In this document: piece by piece, positions 3,124 through 62,161 of the stretch
Layout: the number at the start of each line of letters is the position of its first letter
Numbering within the stretch: the stretch's first letter is position 1
Assembly (NCBI GenBank): GCA_031272365.1
Contig: JAISTX010000039.1
Span: 1-64,000, forward strand
Direction: 5' to 3'
From: Eubacteriales Family XIII. Incertae Sedis bacterium
GTDB lineage: Bacteria; Bacillota; Clostridia; Peptostreptococcales; Anaerovoracaceae
Length of the DNA: 64,000 nt
The notes under the pieces: generated by a model
What the model saw: only the letters and a program-made list of their open reading frames with translations
The model's database searches: none
What the model was told of the DNA's origin: nothing
Made by a program: the position numbers and the translations under genes

Positions 3124-3148
3124 TAGGAGGGATGCACAAATCAATTTG

Positions 3149-5683
3149 ATGCGGAACAAATTGAGGCCGCCCGATCTTTCCTCAGGATATGAGCCACGGG
3201 AAGACCTCATGCGCGTGTTTGACGAGGCAGAGGACTCCGGGGTGCTGTTCCTCTGCGCCCCGGCGGGGTACGGCAAATCCGTCAGCGCCCGGCTGTGGCT
3301 GGAGAAGACGGGCCGGCGCTTTGCCTGGGTCGGGCTAGACGAATACGACAATACGCCCTCGGTGTTCTACCGGCTGTTTTGCGACGCGGTGCTTTCGTGC
3401 GCCCCCGGGGGCGGGGCGATGGAGGAAGCCTTCCGCGACGCGGCTTTCCCGACCGCGCCGGTGGAGCACACGATCCGGGGGCTCTCGGAATTCGTGCCGG
3501 ACGGGGTGCCGCGCGCGATCGTGCTCGACGACTACCACCTCATCACGAACGCGGAGATCCGCCGGACGCTGCCGTTCGTGCTCATGCGCCTGCCGCAGCC
3601 CTGCATCGTGCTCATCGCCTCCCGGAACCTGTGCGAGGCGGAGACAGCGGAATTCAAGGGGCACGCGTGCGACACGCCCTGCATCACGGCCGCGGACCTG
3701 CAGTTCAAGCCCGAGGAGGTGCGCCGGTTTTTGGACGGCAAGGGGATCGAGGCCACGAGCGCGCAGCTTGACGAGCTGATGCGCGGCACCGGGGGGTGGG
3801 CCTTCGGCGTCAACGCGGTGTCCCAGGCAGGCGTCGTCACCGAGCGCGTCCTCGACGATATCACGCTGGACAGTTATTTGAAAAGCGAGATTTGGAGCAA
3901 ATGGAGCGCGCGGCTCCAGGGCTTCCTGCTGAAGATATCGGTCACGGACGAGGTCGACGCGGCGCTTGCGGAGGCGCTCACGGGCGAGGGGGACGCCGAG
4001 GCGCTGCTGGAGGAGGCGTGCCGGAAGAGCGCCTTCATCGTCGCGGCGGCGCCGCATGTATACCGGTGCCACAGCCTCTTCCTGCGGTTCCTGCGCGCCT
4101 CCGCGGCGGCGGCGGGGGTCGACTTCGCGCCGCTCCACCGGACCATGGCGGAGTGGTGCCTGGAGCACCGGCGTTATTTCGAGGCCCGCTACCACGCCAT
4201 CTACTCGGAGGACGCGGAGCTCATGGCGCGCGCGGTGCAGATGTCGCAGGCGTACACGAACCCGTCGTTCGACGAATACGTCACCTTCTACGAGGCGTTC
4301 AACCGGGACAAGCTGCCGGACGCCATCCTGGACGCCTACCCGTTCCTGCTCGCCTCCCCGATCATCTGCAACTACCTGCGCGGCCACCGGGAGGAGACCA
4401 TCCGCTACCTCGACCGCCTCTACCGGCTGTACCCGGTCATCGGCGCGTCGTTCCCGGCCTTCCGGGAGCCGGCGATCTCGATGTCCGTGCTGGACCCGCG
4501 CCTCCCGCTGGTGGACCAGCTCCGCCGCTTCCGGGATCTGTGGGGCCGCATCCCGTGGGTGGACCACGTGACGACCAGCGCCCTCTCCTTCCACTTCCCG
4601 CTGATCCACCGCAGCATCCTCGACTACCACGAGCTGACGGACGCCGGGTCTTTCGAGCTGTACGCCGGGACGCTCGGGCGCATGGCGAAGGGGTTCTTCC
4701 CGATCGCGGACTGCGCCCTCCGCGCGGGGCTGCTGGCCGAGCAGCTGCGCTTCCCCGAGGCGTCCGCGATCCTGCGCCCGGTCCTCGCGGAGCTGCGGGC
4801 GCCGGACGGGATCTGCGCCGAGGCCCCCGCCGAGTTTTGCTTCGGCCTCTTCATGCTGTCGGCGCTCCTGGAGTTCGAGCAGGGAAACGCCGACCTGTCC
4901 GCAGCGGAGCTGCGCCGCGCGGGGGAGATGATCCGTGCCCGGCACGCGGAATACCTCGACCGCAATTTCCGCGCGGTGAAGGCGGGCTACGCGCTCGAGC
5001 GGGGCGAGGCGGCGGCGGCCTCGGAGTGGCTGTCCCAGTTTGCGCTCGAGCTGGAGGGCGACGGGCGGCCGATGCTCTTCAAGATCCCCCGCCACCTGAC
5101 GACGGCGCGCGCCTTCCTCGTGGCCGGCCAGCCCGACCGCGCGGAAAACACCGCGCAGGCCGTCCGGCGGCTGGCGCTGGAATTCCGCCGCCCGCTCGAC
5201 GCGGCGGAGGCGGGCGCGCTCATCTCCGTCTGCCGCTGGCAGCGCGGGGACAAGGCTGGCGCGGCAGAGGTCCTCGCCGAGGTGGTGCGCGCGCTGGCGC
5301 CCTCTGGGTTCGCGCGCCCGGTCACGGACGAGGGCAGGGCCATCCTGCCGGTCCTGCGCAAGCTGCTGCGCGAGGCGAAGCCCCAGGGCGACCCCGCCTA
5401 CCGCCAAAGCCTCGGCCGCCTCATCTCAGGCGCGCAGCGCGTCGCGCGCTACCGCAGGGGCCTGACGGGGGAGCCGCAGAGCAAGCCCCTGAAGCTGACC
5501 CGGCAGCAGGAGCGGCTGCTGAAAATGTGCCGCGAGGGCTACACCCGCGCGGAGATCGCCGACGAGATGTTCCTCTCCGTCCACACCGTCAAGGCGCATT
5601 TCCAGATCATCTACCGCAAGCTCGAAGTGCACAGCGCGACGGAGGCGATCCTGAAGGCCGAGCAGCTCGGGCTCCTCGACTGA
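3149..5683 (+). CDS. MalT-like LuxR-family transcriptional regulator
   Basis: An 844-residue LAL-type (large ATP-binding LuxR) activator. The N-terminal STAND NTPase has a Walker A motif APAGYGKS near residue 40 and a hydrophobic VLDDYH Walker B-like motif. A long helical-repeat sensor region (about 330-750) follows, then a C-terminal LuxR/GerE helix-turn-helix in the last ~65 residues (LTRQQERLLKMC ... AEIADEMFLSVHTVKAHF). Such proteins activate transcription when an inducer binds the repeat domain. The start is uncertain: the only strong SD (3125-3130) serves a 5-codon frame, ATG 3132 to TGA 3149, whose stop overlaps the ATG at 3149; a TTG at 3146 is also in frame. Probable target: the neighbouring MFS gene, by position only. 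Confidence 0.85.
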   Translation: MRNKLRPPDLSSGYEPREDLMRVFDEAEDSGVLFLCAPAGYGKSVSARLWLEKTGRRFAWVGLDEYDNTPSVFYRLFCDAVLSCAPGGGAMEEAFRDAAFPTAPVEHTIRGLSEFVPDGVPRAIVLDDYHLITNAEIRRTLPFVLMRLPQPCIVLIASRNLCEAETAEFKGHACDTPCITAADLQFKPEEVRRFLDGKGIEATSAQLDELMRGTGGWAFGVNAVSQAGVVTERVLDDITLDSYLKSEIWSKWSARLQGFLLKISVTDEVDAALAEALTGEGDAEALLEEACRKSAFIVAAAPHVYRCHSLFLRFLRASAAAAGVDFAPLHRTMAEWCLEHRRYFEARYHAIYSEDAELMARAVQMSQAYTNPSFDEYVTFYEAFNRDKLPDAILDAYPFLLASPIICNYLRGHREETIRYLDRLYRLYPVIGASFPAFREPAISMSVLDPRLPLVDQLRRFRDLWGRIPWVDHVTTSALSFHFPLIHRSILDYHELTDAGSFELYAGTLGRMAKGFFPIADCALRAGLLAEQLRFPEASAILRPVLAELRAPDGICAEAPAEFCFGLFMLSALLEFEQGNADLSAAELRRAGEMIRARHAEYLDRNFRAVKAGYALERGEAAAASEWLSQFALELEGDGRPMLFKIPRHLTTARAFLVAGQPDRAENTAQAVRRLALEFRRPLDAAEAGALISVCRWQRGDKAGAAEVLAEVVRALAPSGFARPVTDEGRAILPVLRKLLREAKPQGDPAYRQSLGRLISGAQRVARYRRGLTGEPQSKPLKLTRQQERLLKMCREGYTRAEIADEMFLSVHTVKAHFQIIYRKLEVHSATEAILKAEQLGLLD

Positions 5684-5692
5684 GGCTCTTGC

Positions 5693-5768
5693 AAAGTTAT
5701 GAAAAGCGATGTAAAGTTATGAAAGCAAAAGCGAATTTATGAAAGGGCGGCAGAAGTTATGAAAAGCG
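5693..5768 (+). repeat. Four ~20-bp direct repeats before the AAA ATPase
   Basis: The core TTATGAAA occurs at 5697, 5717, 5737 and 5757, exactly 20 bp apart, within longer AAGTTATGAAAAGCGA-like units. The last copy contains the start codon of the ATPase gene (ATG 5759). The 20-bp period puts every copy on nearly the same face of the helix, as in a multimeric operator. It begins just after the stop codon of the LuxR gene. Confidence 0.8.
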
Positions 5769-6850
5769 AAAAGCAGGTGCTGTTCAATCCGCGCTTCGGC
5801 CTGAAGCCGGACTTGTTTATCGGCCGCACAGCTATCATAGACAGGATTTTGGATGCGCAGGATTCCACGAACAGCCCCTATCGCACCACATTTGTCACAG
5901 GGATTCGGGGAAGCGGGAAGACAAGCCTGCTCAGCGACATTGCCATCGAATTTGAGCAGAGGGGCGAATTGGTTGTGAGCGTGTCGGAGACGGATGACAT
6001 GCTCGCCGCCATCATTGACCAACTGCTGCTGAAGAGCAGAAGCAGCGCCAGGAAAATCTCCGGTATTTCCGCATCAGCGCTGGGGTTCTCTTTCGGCGTC
6101 ACGCTGTCGGAGAACGCACAGACGCACAGCTTTCGGGGGGCGCTCGGGAAAATCCTGTCAGCGCTGAAAAAGCACAAGACATCTCCCGTCATTTTGATCG
6201 ACGAAGCGTCCGGGGAAACGGCCGCTCTGCGGGAATTTGCTTCCACCTATCAGCTGCTCGCGCGGGAGGGCCTGGATATGCTGGTAGTCGCCGCAGGCCT
6301 GCCGAAATCGGTCAGCAAAGTACTGACCGAGCGTGCTCTCACTTTTCTGCAACGGGCAGGACGCATCAAGCTGGACCCGCTGCCGATGGATGAGATTGTG
6401 GATTCGTACTTGAAGGTGTTTTCGCAGAAAGACCCGGCGGTCCCGTACGATCTTGTGAAGTCGCTTTCGGCGCAGACCTTCGGATTCCCCTATTTGTACC
6501 AGCTCATCGGCTATTATGTGACGGAGCTGTCGGATGCGCGGATTGACCATACCGTTGCTGCAAACGCCGTCAGCCGCGCCCGGGAACTGTTTTTTGAAAA
6601 CGTGCTCGCCATGCTCCTCCGGGACACCACCGAAAAGGAGCGGGATTTTCTCTTTGCGATGCTCGAAGATGCGCAAGACAGCGCGTTCGGGGATATCGCG
6701 AACCGGATGGGCGTCTCGAAAGGCTATGCGGTCAAATACCGTCAAAGGCTGCTGGACGCCATGCTGGTTGAGAGCGCAGGCTACGGAAAGCTGCGGTTTT
6801 CGCCGCCGATGTTCGCCGAGTTCCTCGCGCAGGAAAGACCAAACTACTGA
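5759..6850 (+). CDS. AAA-family ATPase with C-terminal winged-helix-like region
   Basis: A 363-residue predicted cytosolic P-loop ATPase. The Walker A motif TGIRGSGKTS is near residue 47 and the Walker B-like SPVILIDEASG near residue 140. The C-terminal ~80 residues (LFAMLEDAQDSAFGDIANRMGVSKGYAVKYRQRLL) look like a winged helix, as in archaeal-type/AAA_16 ATPases. Such proteins serve in regulation, mobile-element biology or defence, and nothing here selects one role. Codon use is less GC-biased than in neighbouring genes, hinting at transfer. The ribosome site is weak, and the start lies inside the fourth copy of a 20-bp repeat, which suggests autoregulation. Confidence 0.7.
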   Translation: MKSEKQVLFNPRFGLKPDLFIGRTAIIDRILDAQDSTNSPYRTTFVTGIRGSGKTSLLSDIAIEFEQRGELVVSVSETDDMLAAIIDQLLLKSRSSARKISGISASALGFSFGVTLSENAQTHSFRGALGKILSALKKHKTSPVILIDEASGETAALREFASTYQLLAREGLDMLVVAAGLPKSVSKVLTERALTFLQRAGRIKLDPLPMDEIVDSYLKVFSQKDPAVPYDLVKSLSAQTFGFPYLYQLIGYYVTELSDARIDHTVAANAVSRARELFFENVLAMLLRDTTEKERDFLFAMLEDAQDSAFGDIANRMGVSKGYAVKYRQRLLDAMLVESAGYGKLRFSPPMFAEFLAQERPNY

Positions 6851-6860
6851 TTGCCCTGCC

Positions 6861-6880
6861 ATGATACAATAACAGAATGA
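6861..6880 (+). promoter_or_regulatory. Extended -10 promoter giving a leaderless tmk start
   Basis: TGATACAAT (extended -10; hexamer at 6863-6868) lies 8 bases before the tmk ATG, and no Shine-Dalgarno sequence is present. A transcript from it would begin at or next to the start codon. No good -35 is visible. Confidence 0.4.
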
Positions 6881-7509
6881 AGCAGACGGAAACACGCGGG
6901 AAATTCATCGCCCTGGAGGGCATCGACGGGAGCGGCAAATCGACGCAGGCCCGGCTTCTAGCCGACCGGCTGCTGGCGGATGGCCTCGCGGTCCACGCCA
7001 CCTTCGAGCCGACCCGGGGGGACATCGGCGCCCTGCTCCGCCGCCACCTGACGGGGGAGCTGCGCGCGGACGAGCGCGTGGTCGCCGCCCTGTTCGCCGC
7101 CGACCGCCTCGACCACCTGCTCAACGAGGCGGACGGCCTCGCAGGCAAGATCGAGGGCGGCGTCAACGTCATTTCGGATCGTTATTATTTCTCCTCTTAC
7201 GCCTACCATAGCCTATCCGTGCCGATGGACTGGGTCATCGCCGCGAACGCCTTGAGCGCGGGGCTGGTGCGCCCGGACGTGAACATCTTCATCGACACCG
7301 ACCCGGAGGCCTGCATGCAGCGCATCGCGGCGGGGCGGCAGGATACCGAAAAATACGAGCAGCTCGACGTCCTGCGCCGGGTGCGGGAGAAGTACTACGA
7401 GGCGTTCGACCGGCTCGCAGGCGAGGAAACCGTCGCCATCGTAGACGGCGACCGGCCCGAAGCGGCGGTCGCGCAGGACATCCTGGGGATCGCCCGCCGG
7501 GTGCTTTAG
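6877..7509 (+). CDS. tmk: Thymidylate kinase (dTMP kinase)
   Basis: A 210-residue cytosolic kinase that phosphorylates dTMP to dTDP for DNA synthesis. The P-loop GIDGSGKST is at about residues 13-21. The FEPTRG segment matches the family's conserved E-P-x-R motif, FAADRLDHL carries the DR motif, and DRYYFSSYAYHSL supplies thymidine-site residues. Length is normal. The ATG at 6877 has no SD but starts the usual family N-terminus (GKFIALEGIDG). It is followed by a convergent gene set, so this is probably a single-gene unit. Confidence 0.93.
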   Translation: MKQTETRGKFIALEGIDGSGKSTQARLLADRLLADGLAVHATFEPTRGDIGALLRRHLTGELRADERVVAALFAADRLDHLLNEADGLAGKIEGGVNVISDRYYFSSYAYHSLSVPMDWVIAANALSAGLVRPDVNIFIDTDPEACMQRIAAGRQDTEKYEQLDVLRRVREKYYEAFDRLAGEETVAIVDGDRPEAAVAQDILGIARRVL

Positions 7510-51317: not shown

Positions 51318-51465
51318 GCGCAGCGCCACAGCGCCGGCGCAAACCCCGAGCGGCCTCAGCCTTCCCGTTGCCGCAAACGCGCAGCGCCACAGCCCCGGCA
51401 CAAACCCCGAGCGGCCTCAGCCTTCCCGCTGCCGCAAACGCGCAGCGCCACAGCCCCGGCACGCG
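51318..51465. repeat. 61-bp tandem repeat, about 2.4 copies
   Basis: Units starting at 51318, 51379 and 51440 (each begins GCGCAGCGCC) are nearly identical over 61 bp, with the third incomplete. It lies between the promoter and start of the radical SAM gene. The period is not a multiple of three, so it does not encode a repeated peptide. Confidence 0.85.
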
Positions 51466-56660: not shown

Positions 56661-57206
56661 ATGCCGAATAATTATGAAAAAGCCTACCTCTCTTTGGTGC
56701 CCTGGCTCGACGGCGTGCCCGAGCCCGTGGAGCTGCAATTCCTCGGCCGCGGGTTCCGCGTGGGCGCGGGCGGCGTCGAGCAGCTTTCGGGCCCACCCGT
56801 GCACGTCAACGGCAAGTCGGTGCTCATCTGGTACGTCACGCAGTACGGCGGCGGCGAGAAGCCGTCCTATGATTTCCGCCCGATCAGCAGCTTTTCCTTC
56901 GGGATCTTCGCGGGGTCGGGCGTGAGCTGGCAGCAGAAGCAGCAGCCCCGTTTCGGCGGGCTGACGGCGGAGGGCTTCCGCCGCGAGGCAGAGCGCATCG
57001 GCGCGGCGCCCCTGCGCCCGGAGCGCTACGGGGAGAGCTGGCTGCTGCACGCCTTCCCGGAGCTGCCCGCCCTGCTCACCTTCACGGAGGCGGACGAGGA
57101 ATTCCCCGCCGACGTGGACGTCAAATTCGGGGCGAACGCCACGCGCGTCCTGCCCTTCGAAACGCTGGCGGTGCTCCAAAGCCTGATCGAAAGCGAGTTC
57201 CGCTGA
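56661..57206 (+). CDS. DUF3786 domain protein
   Basis: A 181-residue cytosolic protein. The C-terminal DVKFGANATRVLPFETLAVLQSL fits DUF3786, a family common in anaerobes, with unknown function. A TATAAT (56649-56654) 7 bases before ATG 56661 and no SD suggest a leaderless transcript; an earlier in-frame ATG (56643) overlaps that promoter. Divergent from the PH-domain/two-component operon. Confidence 0.72.
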   Translation: MPNNYEKAYLSLVPWLDGVPEPVELQFLGRGFRVGAGGVEQLSGPPVHVNGKSVLIWYVTQYGGGEKPSYDFRPISSFSFGIFAGSGVSWQQKQQPRFGGLTAEGFRREAERIGAAPLRPERYGESWLLHAFPELPALLTFTEADEEFPADVDVKFGANATRVLPFETLAVLQSLIESEFR

Positions 57207-59548: not shown

Positions 59549-62161
59549 CTACCTTCTGAGCAGCGCCGCCAGGTTTTTCAGCAAGTTCTTCAGGGTGTTG
59601 ACCAGGTTTTGGAACGGGTTCGGGGCCGGGGCCGGCTTCACCACCTCGCTGGGCTCTTTCACCGTGACGGACACGTCGAACGTCTTCTTCTCCTCCTTGT
59701 AATAGGCATGGGCCATCTCCCCGTAATTCCCGAGCTCGAAGGTGCCCGTCCAGGCGTCGACCTCTATGGTCGCCTTGTAGGTGCCCGGCTCGAGCCCGGC
59801 CTTCGGGGAGACGCCGAACGAGAGCGTCCCGCCAGGGCCGTCCAAAGAACCCGAGGTCAGCTGCTTCCCGTTCTCCAGGTGCGTGCCGCTCGTCGCGTCC
59901 GGGAGCGCCGAACCGTCCGCCGCGGTGACCTCGAACGCATCGGGGTCAGCCCCGCTGATGCTGCCGTTCAAATAAAAATAATACATATTGCCTTCGTTGG
60001 TGAGCGTGACGACCTTGCTCGGCACCACGCCCTCGACCTCGCCGAAGTCAAGCGCCTCCGTCTGATCGATGCGCAGATCCCACTCGGGGTACTCGACGGA
60101 GATCACGAGCGCCTTGTAGGTCTTCGGGCTGTAGCGCGCGCTGTCCTCCGGGTAGATCGTGTAGGAGAAGGTCTCCTCCGTGCCGGCCTTGCCGATGACG
60201 GTGTCGCCGTCCTGATCCCATTCGATCCTATCAATGTCGCCGGGGATGTACGGCGGGGGCAGCTCGACCTCGCTGAGCTTCGAGCCCTCGTAGGCCCGCA
60301 CGTCGGAGCCCCAGTACGGGAAGTCGTACGGGAACTCCGTTTTCCCCACGGAGAAGGAAATCTTGCATTCCTCCGTGACGACGTCATAGCCGAACCCGTC
60401 GATGCCGTAGTTTTGGAGCGGCGTCCGGAGATAGATCCAGCTCACCTCCGCGGTCGCCTCATAGTCGCCCGCCGCGAGGTTGGCCTTCGGCGTGATCATG
60501 TACGAGCAATACTGCCGCCCCTGCAGATAATCCGTGAGCTGCCCGTAGCCGTCCCCAAGCTCCTTGATGCGGAAATTCACGTTTGTGTACATCGCCCTTC
60601 CGTTCAGGTACGTCGCCTTGAACGCGGAGGCGTCCTCCCCGGTGAGGCGCACGCTCACGTAGTCCATCTCCGCCGTGCCGTTATTGTAGACGGAGAAGAC
60701 GCTCCCGACCAGGTTGCCGTACCCGACGTTTTGCGGCTTGAAGGTGTAGGACTTCTCCGGTTCAAAGAAGTAGTCCCGGACCGGTTTCGCGAGGACCTTG
60801 ACGTCCACCGTGTACTGCTTCGGGTTGTAGACGCTGGACTCCTTGAAGTACACCGTGTAGGTGAACTGGCCTGTTGTGCCGGCCGCCCCGACGGACGTGT
60901 CCAGCGGGTCGTCCCACTCGATGTGGTCCGCCGGCGAGTCCTCCTCGGAGTCGTCGAGTTCCATGTACAGCGGCGGCAGCGGCGCGTCCTTCAGCGTCGA
61001 CCCCTCGTAGACCTCGATGGCCGCCCCCCACCAATACCCGTCGTCGGGGAAGTCAATCTTGTCGATCGGCCCGATCAGCGGCTCCACGACGAAGGTGAGC
61101 GCGACGGAATCCTGGTGCGTGTCGTAGCCCATGCCGACGGCGCCGTAGTTGTTGAGGATCGCCGTGTAGCTGACCCAGGCGACTTCCACCTCTACGTTGT
61201 AGGCGCCGGCGGCGAGGCCCGTCTTCGGCGTCACGTCGAAGGGGGCGACATTGAAATACGGGAGCAAGGGGCTCGTCGTGCCATCCAGCGAATCCATCAG
61301 CACGCCGTAGCCCTCCCCGAACAGGGACTTCGACCAGCTGTCCTGCTCGTCGAGGGCGGACCCGTCCGGTTTTGTTATTGTAAATAAATCGGCGTCCTTG
61401 CCGCTCAGGCGCAGCTGCAGCCTCGTCATGGGCTGGTTGCCCGTATTCGTGATGTCCACTTCGAAGGGCGGCGCCTCCTCGTAGCCCTCCTTCGCAATCC
61501 ACTTCTCGCCGCCGTTCGACGCGTCGATTTCGTGGCTGTAGTCCGGGTAGGGCTTGACGGTGATCTCGACCTCGTAGGTCTTCGGGGCGTAGTACACCCC
61601 GCCGACCACCTGCGGGTACTCATCCCCGAAACTGATGGTGTACGAGAATTTGTTGATGGTGCCGGGATCGCCGACCGGCGTGTCGAGCGGGTCGTCCCAT
61701 TCGACGCTGACGGCTTCCGACGGCGTGTTGTAGTCGAGGTACAGCGGCGGCAGCGGCGCGTCCTTCAGCGTCGCGCCCTCGTAGACCTCGATCGGCGCGC
61801 CCCACCACTTCCCCTCATACGGGTATTCGATGAGCGTGTACGTGTCGCCGCCCGTGTCGTCCTGCTCCGGATCCGCGATGACGACGCCCGGCAATGGCTC
61901 GTCTGCATCCGGCTCCGGGTCAGCGATGACGACAGTCGGCAGCGGCTCGTCCGGCGCCGGCTCCGGGTCGGCGATGACGACGCCTGTCTGCGGCTCGTCC
62001 GCCGGCGGATCCGGGTCGACGATGACCACCGCCGACTGCCCGTCGGCCACGCCGCCGTAAGCGACGGCAAGGCCCCCCATAGAAACAACGAGGCTCAGCG
62101 TCACCAGCAGCGCAATGCACCGCGCAAGCGACCCGAGCCGGACCCCATAATGCTTCTTCAT
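59549..62161 (-). CDS. Repeat-rich secreted/surface protein
   Basis: An 870-residue protein with an N-terminal signal peptide (about 1-37). A proline/acid-rich region follows with four tandem ~19-residue units of the VVIADPEP-x-DEPLP type (about 48-125). Then come three large (~220-residue) homologous blocks, each with WWGAPIEVYEGATLKDAPLPPLY-like, WDDPLDT and YSPKTY/YNPKQY motifs, and Ig-like linkers. The C-terminus is amphipathic and ends without LPXTG or an obvious membrane anchor (NLVNTLKNLLKNLAALLRR). The ribosome site GGGAGAG precedes ATG 62161. The binding target is unknown. Confidence 0.7.
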   Translation of the reverse strand: MKKHYGVRLGSLARCIALLVTLSLVVSMGGLAVAYGGVADGQSAVVIVDPDPPADEPQTGVVIADPEPAPDEPLPTVVIADPEPDADEPLPGVVIADPEQDDTGGDTYTLIEYPYEGKWWGAPIEVYEGATLKDAPLPPLYLDYNTPSEAVSVEWDDPLDTPVGDPGTINKFSYTISFGDEYPQVVGGVYYAPKTYEVEITVKPYPDYSHEIDASNGGEKWIAKEGYEEAPPFEVDITNTGNQPMTRLQLRLSGKDADLFTITKPDGSALDEQDSWSKSLFGEGYGVLMDSLDGTTSPLLPYFNVAPFDVTPKTGLAAGAYNVEVEVAWVSYTAILNNYGAVGMGYDTHQDSVALTFVVEPLIGPIDKIDFPDDGYWWGAAIEVYEGSTLKDAPLPPLYMELDDSEEDSPADHIEWDDPLDTSVGAAGTTGQFTYTVYFKESSVYNPKQYTVDVKVLAKPVRDYFFEPEKSYTFKPQNVGYGNLVGSVFSVYNNGTAEMDYVSVRLTGEDASAFKATYLNGRAMYTNVNFRIKELGDGYGQLTDYLQGRQYCSYMITPKANLAAGDYEATAEVSWIYLRTPLQNYGIDGFGYDVVTEECKISFSVGKTEFPYDFPYWGSDVRAYEGSKLSEVELPPPYIPGDIDRIEWDQDGDTVIGKAGTEETFSYTIYPEDSARYSPKTYKALVISVEYPEWDLRIDQTEALDFGEVEGVVPSKVVTLTNEGNMYYFYLNGSISGADPDAFEVTAADGSALPDATSGTHLENGKQLTSGSLDGPGGTLSFGVSPKAGLEPGTYKATIEVDAWTGTFELGNYGEMAHAYYKEEKKTFDVSVTVKEPSEVVKPAPAPNPFQNLVNTLKNLLKNLAALLRR

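Follow-up and report, generated by a model that had tools for sequence, protein, structure and literature searches.

The repeats that run into the start codon of an AAA+ ATPase gene in the window (by which we mean the whole 64-kb stretch of DNA analysed) are real, and the feature is a general one that extends beyond what the initial annotation had perceived. Phased direct-repeat arrays are typical of the Clostridia members of this ATPase family that were tested. Judging from sequence comparison, the repeats are probably the operator of the ATPase gene, bound cooperatively by the C-terminal winged helix (wHTH) of the encoded protein, which would thereby repress its own gene.

The array and the ATPase in the window

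Four TTATGAAA cores start at positions 5697, 5717, 5737 and 5757, with a period of exactly 20 bp, and the last one contains the start codon, just as the initial annotation had described them. The features of this region are as follows.

5689..5694, + strand: possible -35 box TTGCAA (4/6, weak), immediately 5' of unit 1; placed by analogy with homologues
5695..5704, + strand: array unit 1, AGTTATGAAA; repeat search and unit finder
5705..5714, + strand: degenerate unit AGCGATGTAA (7/10); unit finder
5712..5717, + strand: possible -10 box TAAAGT (4/6, weak), 17 nt past 5694; read from the sequence
5715..5724, + strand: array unit 2, AGTTATGAAA; repeat search and unit finder
5735..5744, + strand: array unit 3, ATTTATGAAA; repeat search and unit finder
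5755..5764, + strand: array unit 4, AGTTATGAAA, overlapping the ATPase start codon (ATG 5759); repeat search and unit finder
5699-5722, 5719-5742 and 5739-5762, + strand: chain of three 7-codon mini-ORFs, the stop of each overlapping the next ATG; translation
5759-6850, + strand: AAA+ ATPase of 363 aa with a predicted C-terminal wHTH; AAA_16 match and structure model
6686..6799, + strand: codons of the predicted wHTH residues 310-347; computed from residue numbers

The sole further copy of TTATGAAA within the 64-kb window lies at 56672, and no other 8-mer of the window recurs with a fixed spacing of 9-39 bp in three or more copies, nor was any such 8-mer obtained in 40 dinucleotide shuffles of the window. 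The exact pattern TTATGAAA-N12-TTATGAAA occurs only at this array in the window's genome, where two poor matches were found elsewhere, and GC content is 36% between 5690 and 5770 vs. 57% in the ATPase gene. Because a degenerate AGCGATGTAA unit starts at 5705, the register of the array may be one of 10 bp with omitted sites; the 20-20-20 spacing of the window is a sparse version of the family array described below, with a degenerate unit in one of its gaps. The promoter scan gave no site of at least 9/12 in the array region, and the TTGCAA and TAAAGT boxes were not accepted.

Each core includes an ATG, as had been stated, but the frame is not a different one each time, because the ATGs at 5699 and 5759 are separated by 60 bp and therefore lie in a common frame. 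Since the TTATGA core holds both an ATG and a TGA, a 20-bp period sets the TGA of the following core 21 nt from each ATG. The first three ATGs therefore start chained mini-ORFs (peptides MKSDVKL*, MKAKANL* and MKGRQKL*), a chain that we judge to be a by-product of the array. Elsewhere in the window, tandem repeats occupy 51318-51462 (61-bp unit, 2.4 copies, 96% match) and 61864-62026 (48-bp unit, 3.4 copies, 80% match).

The ATPase scored 41.7 bits against AAA_16 (Pfam PF13191; cut-off 32.6), a family matched at E ≤ 0.001 by all 27 members of set A1, and 32.8 bits against ATPase_2 (archaeal ATPase, Pfam PF01637), just under the cut-off of 33.2. No ORC or Cdc6 family was present among its Pfam matches at E ≤ 0.001, nor was any MerR or TPR family. 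Its structure model (pLDDT 87.6, pTM 0.85) comprises an AAA+ core, a helical lid and a C-terminal wHTH with helices at residues 310-317 and 321-333 and wing strands at 337-341 and 344-347, so that the predicted protein has the Orc1/Cdc6 layout of an AAA+ domain followed by a winged helix. The closest folds were 2qen (Z 22.8, rmsd 3.7, 320 aligned) and 2fna (Z 21.9, rmsd 3.8, 310 aligned), followed by A. pernix ORC2 (1w5t_A; Z 20.4, rmsd 4.5, 329 aligned) and then by NLR/apoptosome ATPases, and Foldseek ranked DNA-bound Cdc6/Orc1 first; a sequence search of solved structures returned only partial P-loop matches. The annotation name given to the family is only 'ATP-binding protein'. None of the PADLOC anti-phage defence models matched the window protein (represented by L006) at E ≤ 0.001, and other family members gave weak matches only (best 1.2e-07). 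On one side of the gene lies a MalT-like LuxR regulator gene (3146-5683), and on the other a gene for thymidylate kinase (6877-7509), the latter being found in no other genome when it was sought in 26 genomes for empty-site synteny.

Arrays upstream of homologous genes

The spread of the ATPase family is patchy. At order level a protein query (E ≤ 1e-20) found it in 7 of 297 genomes and at class level in 11 of 391, and at phylum level an alignment query (E ≤ 1e-25) found it in 5 of 398 genomes, these three counts taking in the window's own genome; the alignment query also found it in 35 of 200 Lachnospiraceae, the label of this 200-genome group (f37) being deduced from the identity of L029 with the Butyrivibrio locus L034. 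A scan of named genomes confirmed at least 563 relatives, of which 80 were kept, mostly Lachnospiraceae. No relative came from the first genome-contig scan with the window protein, none was confirmed in two viral-contig scans (18 and 2 candidate stretches), and among phage records the window protein had no match and L029 a single partial one. Family genes are both chromosomal and plasmid-borne (68 plasmid records have a family match), with up to eight copies per genome: two paralogues, L013 and L018, are present in the window's genome, and genome G1076 harbors eight family ATPases, seven of which have arrays with seven different words, L205 having none. A recurrent neighbour gene was sought across 103 loci and none was found, the biggest common neighbour family being present in 13 of them.

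Arrays were tested by asking whether 6-mer pairs spaced 9-11, 19-21, 29-30 and 39-40 bp apart were in excess over 400 dinucleotide shuffles per upstream region. Phased direct repeats (P ≤ 0.01) were detected in 102 of the 107 regions tested (one more row, L056, was skipped for its short upstream), i.e., in 98 of 103 non-identical homologues after removal of four duplicate rows (L034, L038, L088, and L108), a set in which a few near-duplicates such as L035 and L036 remain. Control upstreams from the same loci reached the same threshold in 12 of 193 cases, one of them (L041:3761) being a member of the family. From the 62 loci of a second set came 41 usable new genes (17 were identical to genes already counted and 4 lacked an intact ORF), and arrays were present in 38 of them. 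At this threshold the genes without array were L015, L060, and L105 (none by the test) together with L009 and L111 (weak) in the first set, and L188, L205, and L211 in the second. Homologues lacking the repeats, which the initial annotation had named as the outcome that would speak against it when it proposed to look beside homologues, were thus not what either set returned; among distant plasmid homologues, nine of 68 being fetched, arrays were seen in three only (Arthrobacter, Collinsella, and Bacillus subtilis). Homologues carry other repeat words, for which reason a fixed motif was rejected; searching for TTATGAAA by itself would have left the family arrays undetected. The mean upstream GC was 0.29 in homologues vs. 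0.38 in controls.

At L105:4850-5001 (Streptococcus sobrinus), where the array was undetected, a single AGTTATAAAA stands beside the start, possibly as a reduced operator; at L060:4130-4261 a family gene has an upstream region with no detectable array.

Identical 7-mers recur at 10, 19/20, 29/30, 39/40, 48/49, 58, and 68 bp, with 834 pairs at 10 bp and 1169 at 29 bp, ~5-7 being expected, in a spectrum that includes the four duplicate genes; the second set showed the same peaks. This series points to a pitch of ~9.7 bp. A fit based on units leans to 9.8 bp, since the finder links sites near multiples of 9.8, an assumption that is absent from the series. Unit-to-unit steps are mostly of 10 (361) and 19 bp (117), and arrays have a median of 7 units and a maximum of 14. 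With a pitch of ~9.7 bp the sites would slowly rotate round the helix on relaxed B-DNA. The same-face spacing proposed for the window is consequently an approximation only, 20 bp corresponding to 1.90 turns at 10.5 bp per turn, which makes the sites drift by ~100 degrees across 60 bp; binding on one face of relaxed B-DNA was weakened as a candidate by the distance peaks.

A -35-like hexamer is located between -1 and 12 nt 5' of a unit in 62 of 101 genes, compared with 15.2 expected by shuffling. Most of these hexamers (54/73) lie 2-3 nt 5' of the unit and 62 of the 73 have a -10-like box 15-19 nt downstream, a placement that often makes units overlap with the core promoter. The first units of many homologues are found at the -35/-10 region, 5' of the expected transcript start, and an ATG is present in just 12 of the 137 unit words of the family, the join included.

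When the paired-unit pattern of AGTTATAAAA was searched with at most one mismatch in the 14 genomes holding this word, 42 sites were retrieved at 15 places, and all 15 precede a family gene. A near-copy of the promoter of paralogue C70 plus three units was nevertheless found at L123:1235-1320 (G000:C85), before an unrelated lipoprotein-like ORF (L123:1324-2403), and array sites are therefore not strictly private; this copy is possibly a second target or a captured promoter. As a separate observation, the genome of L068 encodes a further ATPase of the family, which has its own 29-bp-spaced unit pairs (L159:1006-1108), with the slightly different word AGTTATAACA.

Covariation of the repeat word with the winged helix

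In a first set of 100 genes with at least three units (L019, truncated, was left out), the distance between words correlated with the distance between wHTHs, given that between ATPase domains, with a partial r of 0.388, which none of 1000 permutations reached (maximum 0.168), whereas the converse, i.e., word against ATPase-domain distance given wHTH distance, gave a partial r of 0.042. The replication set comprised 37 of the 41 new genes (L165 was excluded for its too few units, L188, L205, and L211 for having no array) and returned a partial r of 0.377 (0/1000 permutations, maximum 0.21), or 0.369 when a phase-free word distance was used. Sliding windows of 47 residues reached partial r values of 0.24 and 0.34 over the wHTH and stayed at or below 0.05 in 23 others. 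When the same test was applied to the composition of nearby DNA, r was 0.008 for the -320..-200 region, 0.017 for -450..-330 and 0.003 inside the gene, compared with 0.323 for the array region.

The residues most associated with the word included 342 in the wing and 325, 326, and 321 in the recognition helix, and four of the top ten residue-base associations fell outside the wHTH, at residues such as 275 and 254. Simple one-residue recognition codes were mostly not replicated in the second set: T326 went with G8 in 9/13 cases of the first set and 0/6 of the second, K/R326 with G7 in 5/6 and 2/5, and P326 with G5 in 11/16 and 4/11. The sole rule holding in both sets links Y342 with G2 (64/69, then 10/17), other residues at this position giving 4/31 and 3/23. 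K326 occurred with TGAA, matching the window, in 4/4 cases of the first set, and L075 has the window's word with V326. Phylogenetically independent pairs had the right direction and were too few for significance (K/R326-G7: 3 for, 0 against, of 4). The possibility raised at the outset, of repeats bound by the ATPase's own winged helix, has good support from a word that varies with the wHTH rather than with the ATPase domain, as nearby non-array DNA does not, and we consider it likely that each wHTH binds its own repeats. As a whole, the interpretation given in the initial annotation is partly supported.

Putative operator function and known systems

In the mechanism that we propose, ATPase protomers would occupy successive 10-bp units in a single orientation, head-to-tail, by means of the recognition helix and wing of the wHTH, while the ORC/Cdc6- and STAND-like AAA+ parts would confer cooperativity and nucleotide dependence on binding. 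Occupancy of the array may block transcription, as the units of many homologues extend over the spacer/-10 and as far as the ribosome-binding site, and the gene would hence limit itself and be switched on when the oligomer falls apart. Repression of the own gene is suggested by the placement of the units, and cooperativity and nucleotide control by the fold and the analogy with Orc1-2. With a word for each family member, paralogues of the same genome need not cross-talk. The ATPase may have a further output as well.

A more ambitious reading, which we put forward tentatively and regard as rather unlikely, is that these ORC/STAND-like ATPases of bacteria form a large family, as yet undescribed, whose private arrays of ~9.7-bp pitch coevolve with the winged helix and carry a spiral that is switched by nucleotide and either turns slowly round the DNA or overwinds it, as a switchable platform for a DNA-level function beyond the operator, the words of paralogues diversifying for insulation. 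It is unlikely, too, that the array is an assembly platform where an ATPase spiral acts on DNA and autoregulation is a side effect, for which ORB boxes of archaeal ORC and iterons of partition proteins offer parallels. The presence of ORC/Cdc6 among the best structural matches, arrays that are long for a plain operator, with their median of 7 and up to 14 units, and a pitch implying a spiral or overwound DNA would fit such a platform, but the family is patchy, both chromosomal and plasmid-borne, lacks a partner gene and reaches eight copies per genome.

Promoters are commonly read by other proteins, and the array might be read by another regulator of the cell instead of the ATPase; this we hold to be quite improbable, considering that in both sets the word follows the wHTH of the ATPase itself, that no neighbour gene recurs and that paralogues of one genome differ in word, as the seven arrays with seven words of G1076 do. 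Curved or easily melted AT-rich promoter DNA with phased A-tracts, acting with no specific protein, is a very improbable explanation: although the units are AT-rich with A runs and the upstream regions poorer in GC than controls (0.29 vs. 0.38), some words, e.g., AGTTGTGGAA and CTTTCTACAA, have no A-tract, a pitch of ~9.7 bp drifts out of phase with 10.5 bp, and the covariation with the wHTH is left unexplained. It is hardly credible that the chained mini-ORFs are a translational device whose stop-start overlaps hand ribosomes on to the start of the ATPase, since the exact stop on the next ATG displayed by the three 7-codon ORFs of the window meets the rarity of ATG in the family unit words (12/137) and the location of the first units of many homologues 5' of the expected transcript start. 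Functionless tandem slippage, a known source of tandem repeats and one that the long and nearly perfect tandem of L075 recalls, has the least credit of all in view of arrays in 98/103 and 38/41 genes, their 10/19-bp pattern, their fixed place by the -35-like box and the wHTH covariation.

If the self-binding operator is what these arrays represent, they would provide a function-bearing handle on an ATPase family common in Lachnospiraceae, and more than 100 natural protein-operator pairs with readable covariation from which the choice of DNA by winged helices could be learned and insulated regulators drawn. They would further reveal that bacteria use an ORC-like AAA+ oligomer as a switch that limits itself, and a definite structure, that of a spiral or overwound complex, is predicted by the 9.7-bp pitch. 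In the open-licence literature, no description of such arrays before such an ATPase was found.

In ParR-parC and TubR-tubC, the promoter of the operon itself contains direct repeats of ~10-12 bp that are bound cooperatively as a spiral, and these systems require the partner gene of ParM or TubZ. An adjacent filament-forming partner of this kind is absent here, no neighbour family occurring in more than 13 of the 103 loci. The archaeal ATPases SSO1545 (2fna) and PABY2304 (2qen), closest in fold, share 15% identity with the window protein, and to our knowledge neither has a repeat array or a DNA function. IniR, which controls iniBAC, is described as a STAND-like promoter-controlling ATPase with a sensor between the ATPase and the DNA-binding domain (PMC5760070), whereas the window protein consists of ATPase, lid and wHTH only and has neither the sensor nor the TPR part of MalT/IniR STAND proteins.

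Orc1-2 of Sulfolobus islandicus, an archaeal global DNA-damage regulator that binds a hexanucleotide motif in its own promoter and has stronger DNA binding in the ATP form, resembles the window ATPase as an ORC-type AAA+ protein with a C-terminal winged helix that regulates transcription; in the available portion of its description no phased array of 10-bp units appears, and the ATPase array, in the case tested, occupies one place per genome (PMC9738581). The BldC family is described as forming cooperative head-to-tail wHTH multimers on 9-bp direct repeats, with distortion of the DNA (PMC5859096). The ATPase arrays, whose 10-bp repeats have one orientation and a word covarying with the wHTH, may be bound in a similar manner. 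BldC is itself a MerR-like protein of 68 residues without ATPase, with many targets and one word (PMC5859096), whereas the window protein is not a small MerR-like protein devoid of other domains: its wHTH forms the C-terminal end of an AAA+ ATPase of 363 aa, and diversification of the word goes along with that of the wHTH. RdfS, an oligomeric wHTH protein that builds left-handed superhelical filaments, binds its own promoter in negative autoregulation, and differs as an excision factor of a conjugative element that has no ATPase domain and, in the text available, no clear binding motif reported (PMC11963761). The ATPase family is undescribed in the literature searched, and its proposed mode of binding, that of a self-regulating wHTH bound in tandem, has precedents in BldC and RdfS.
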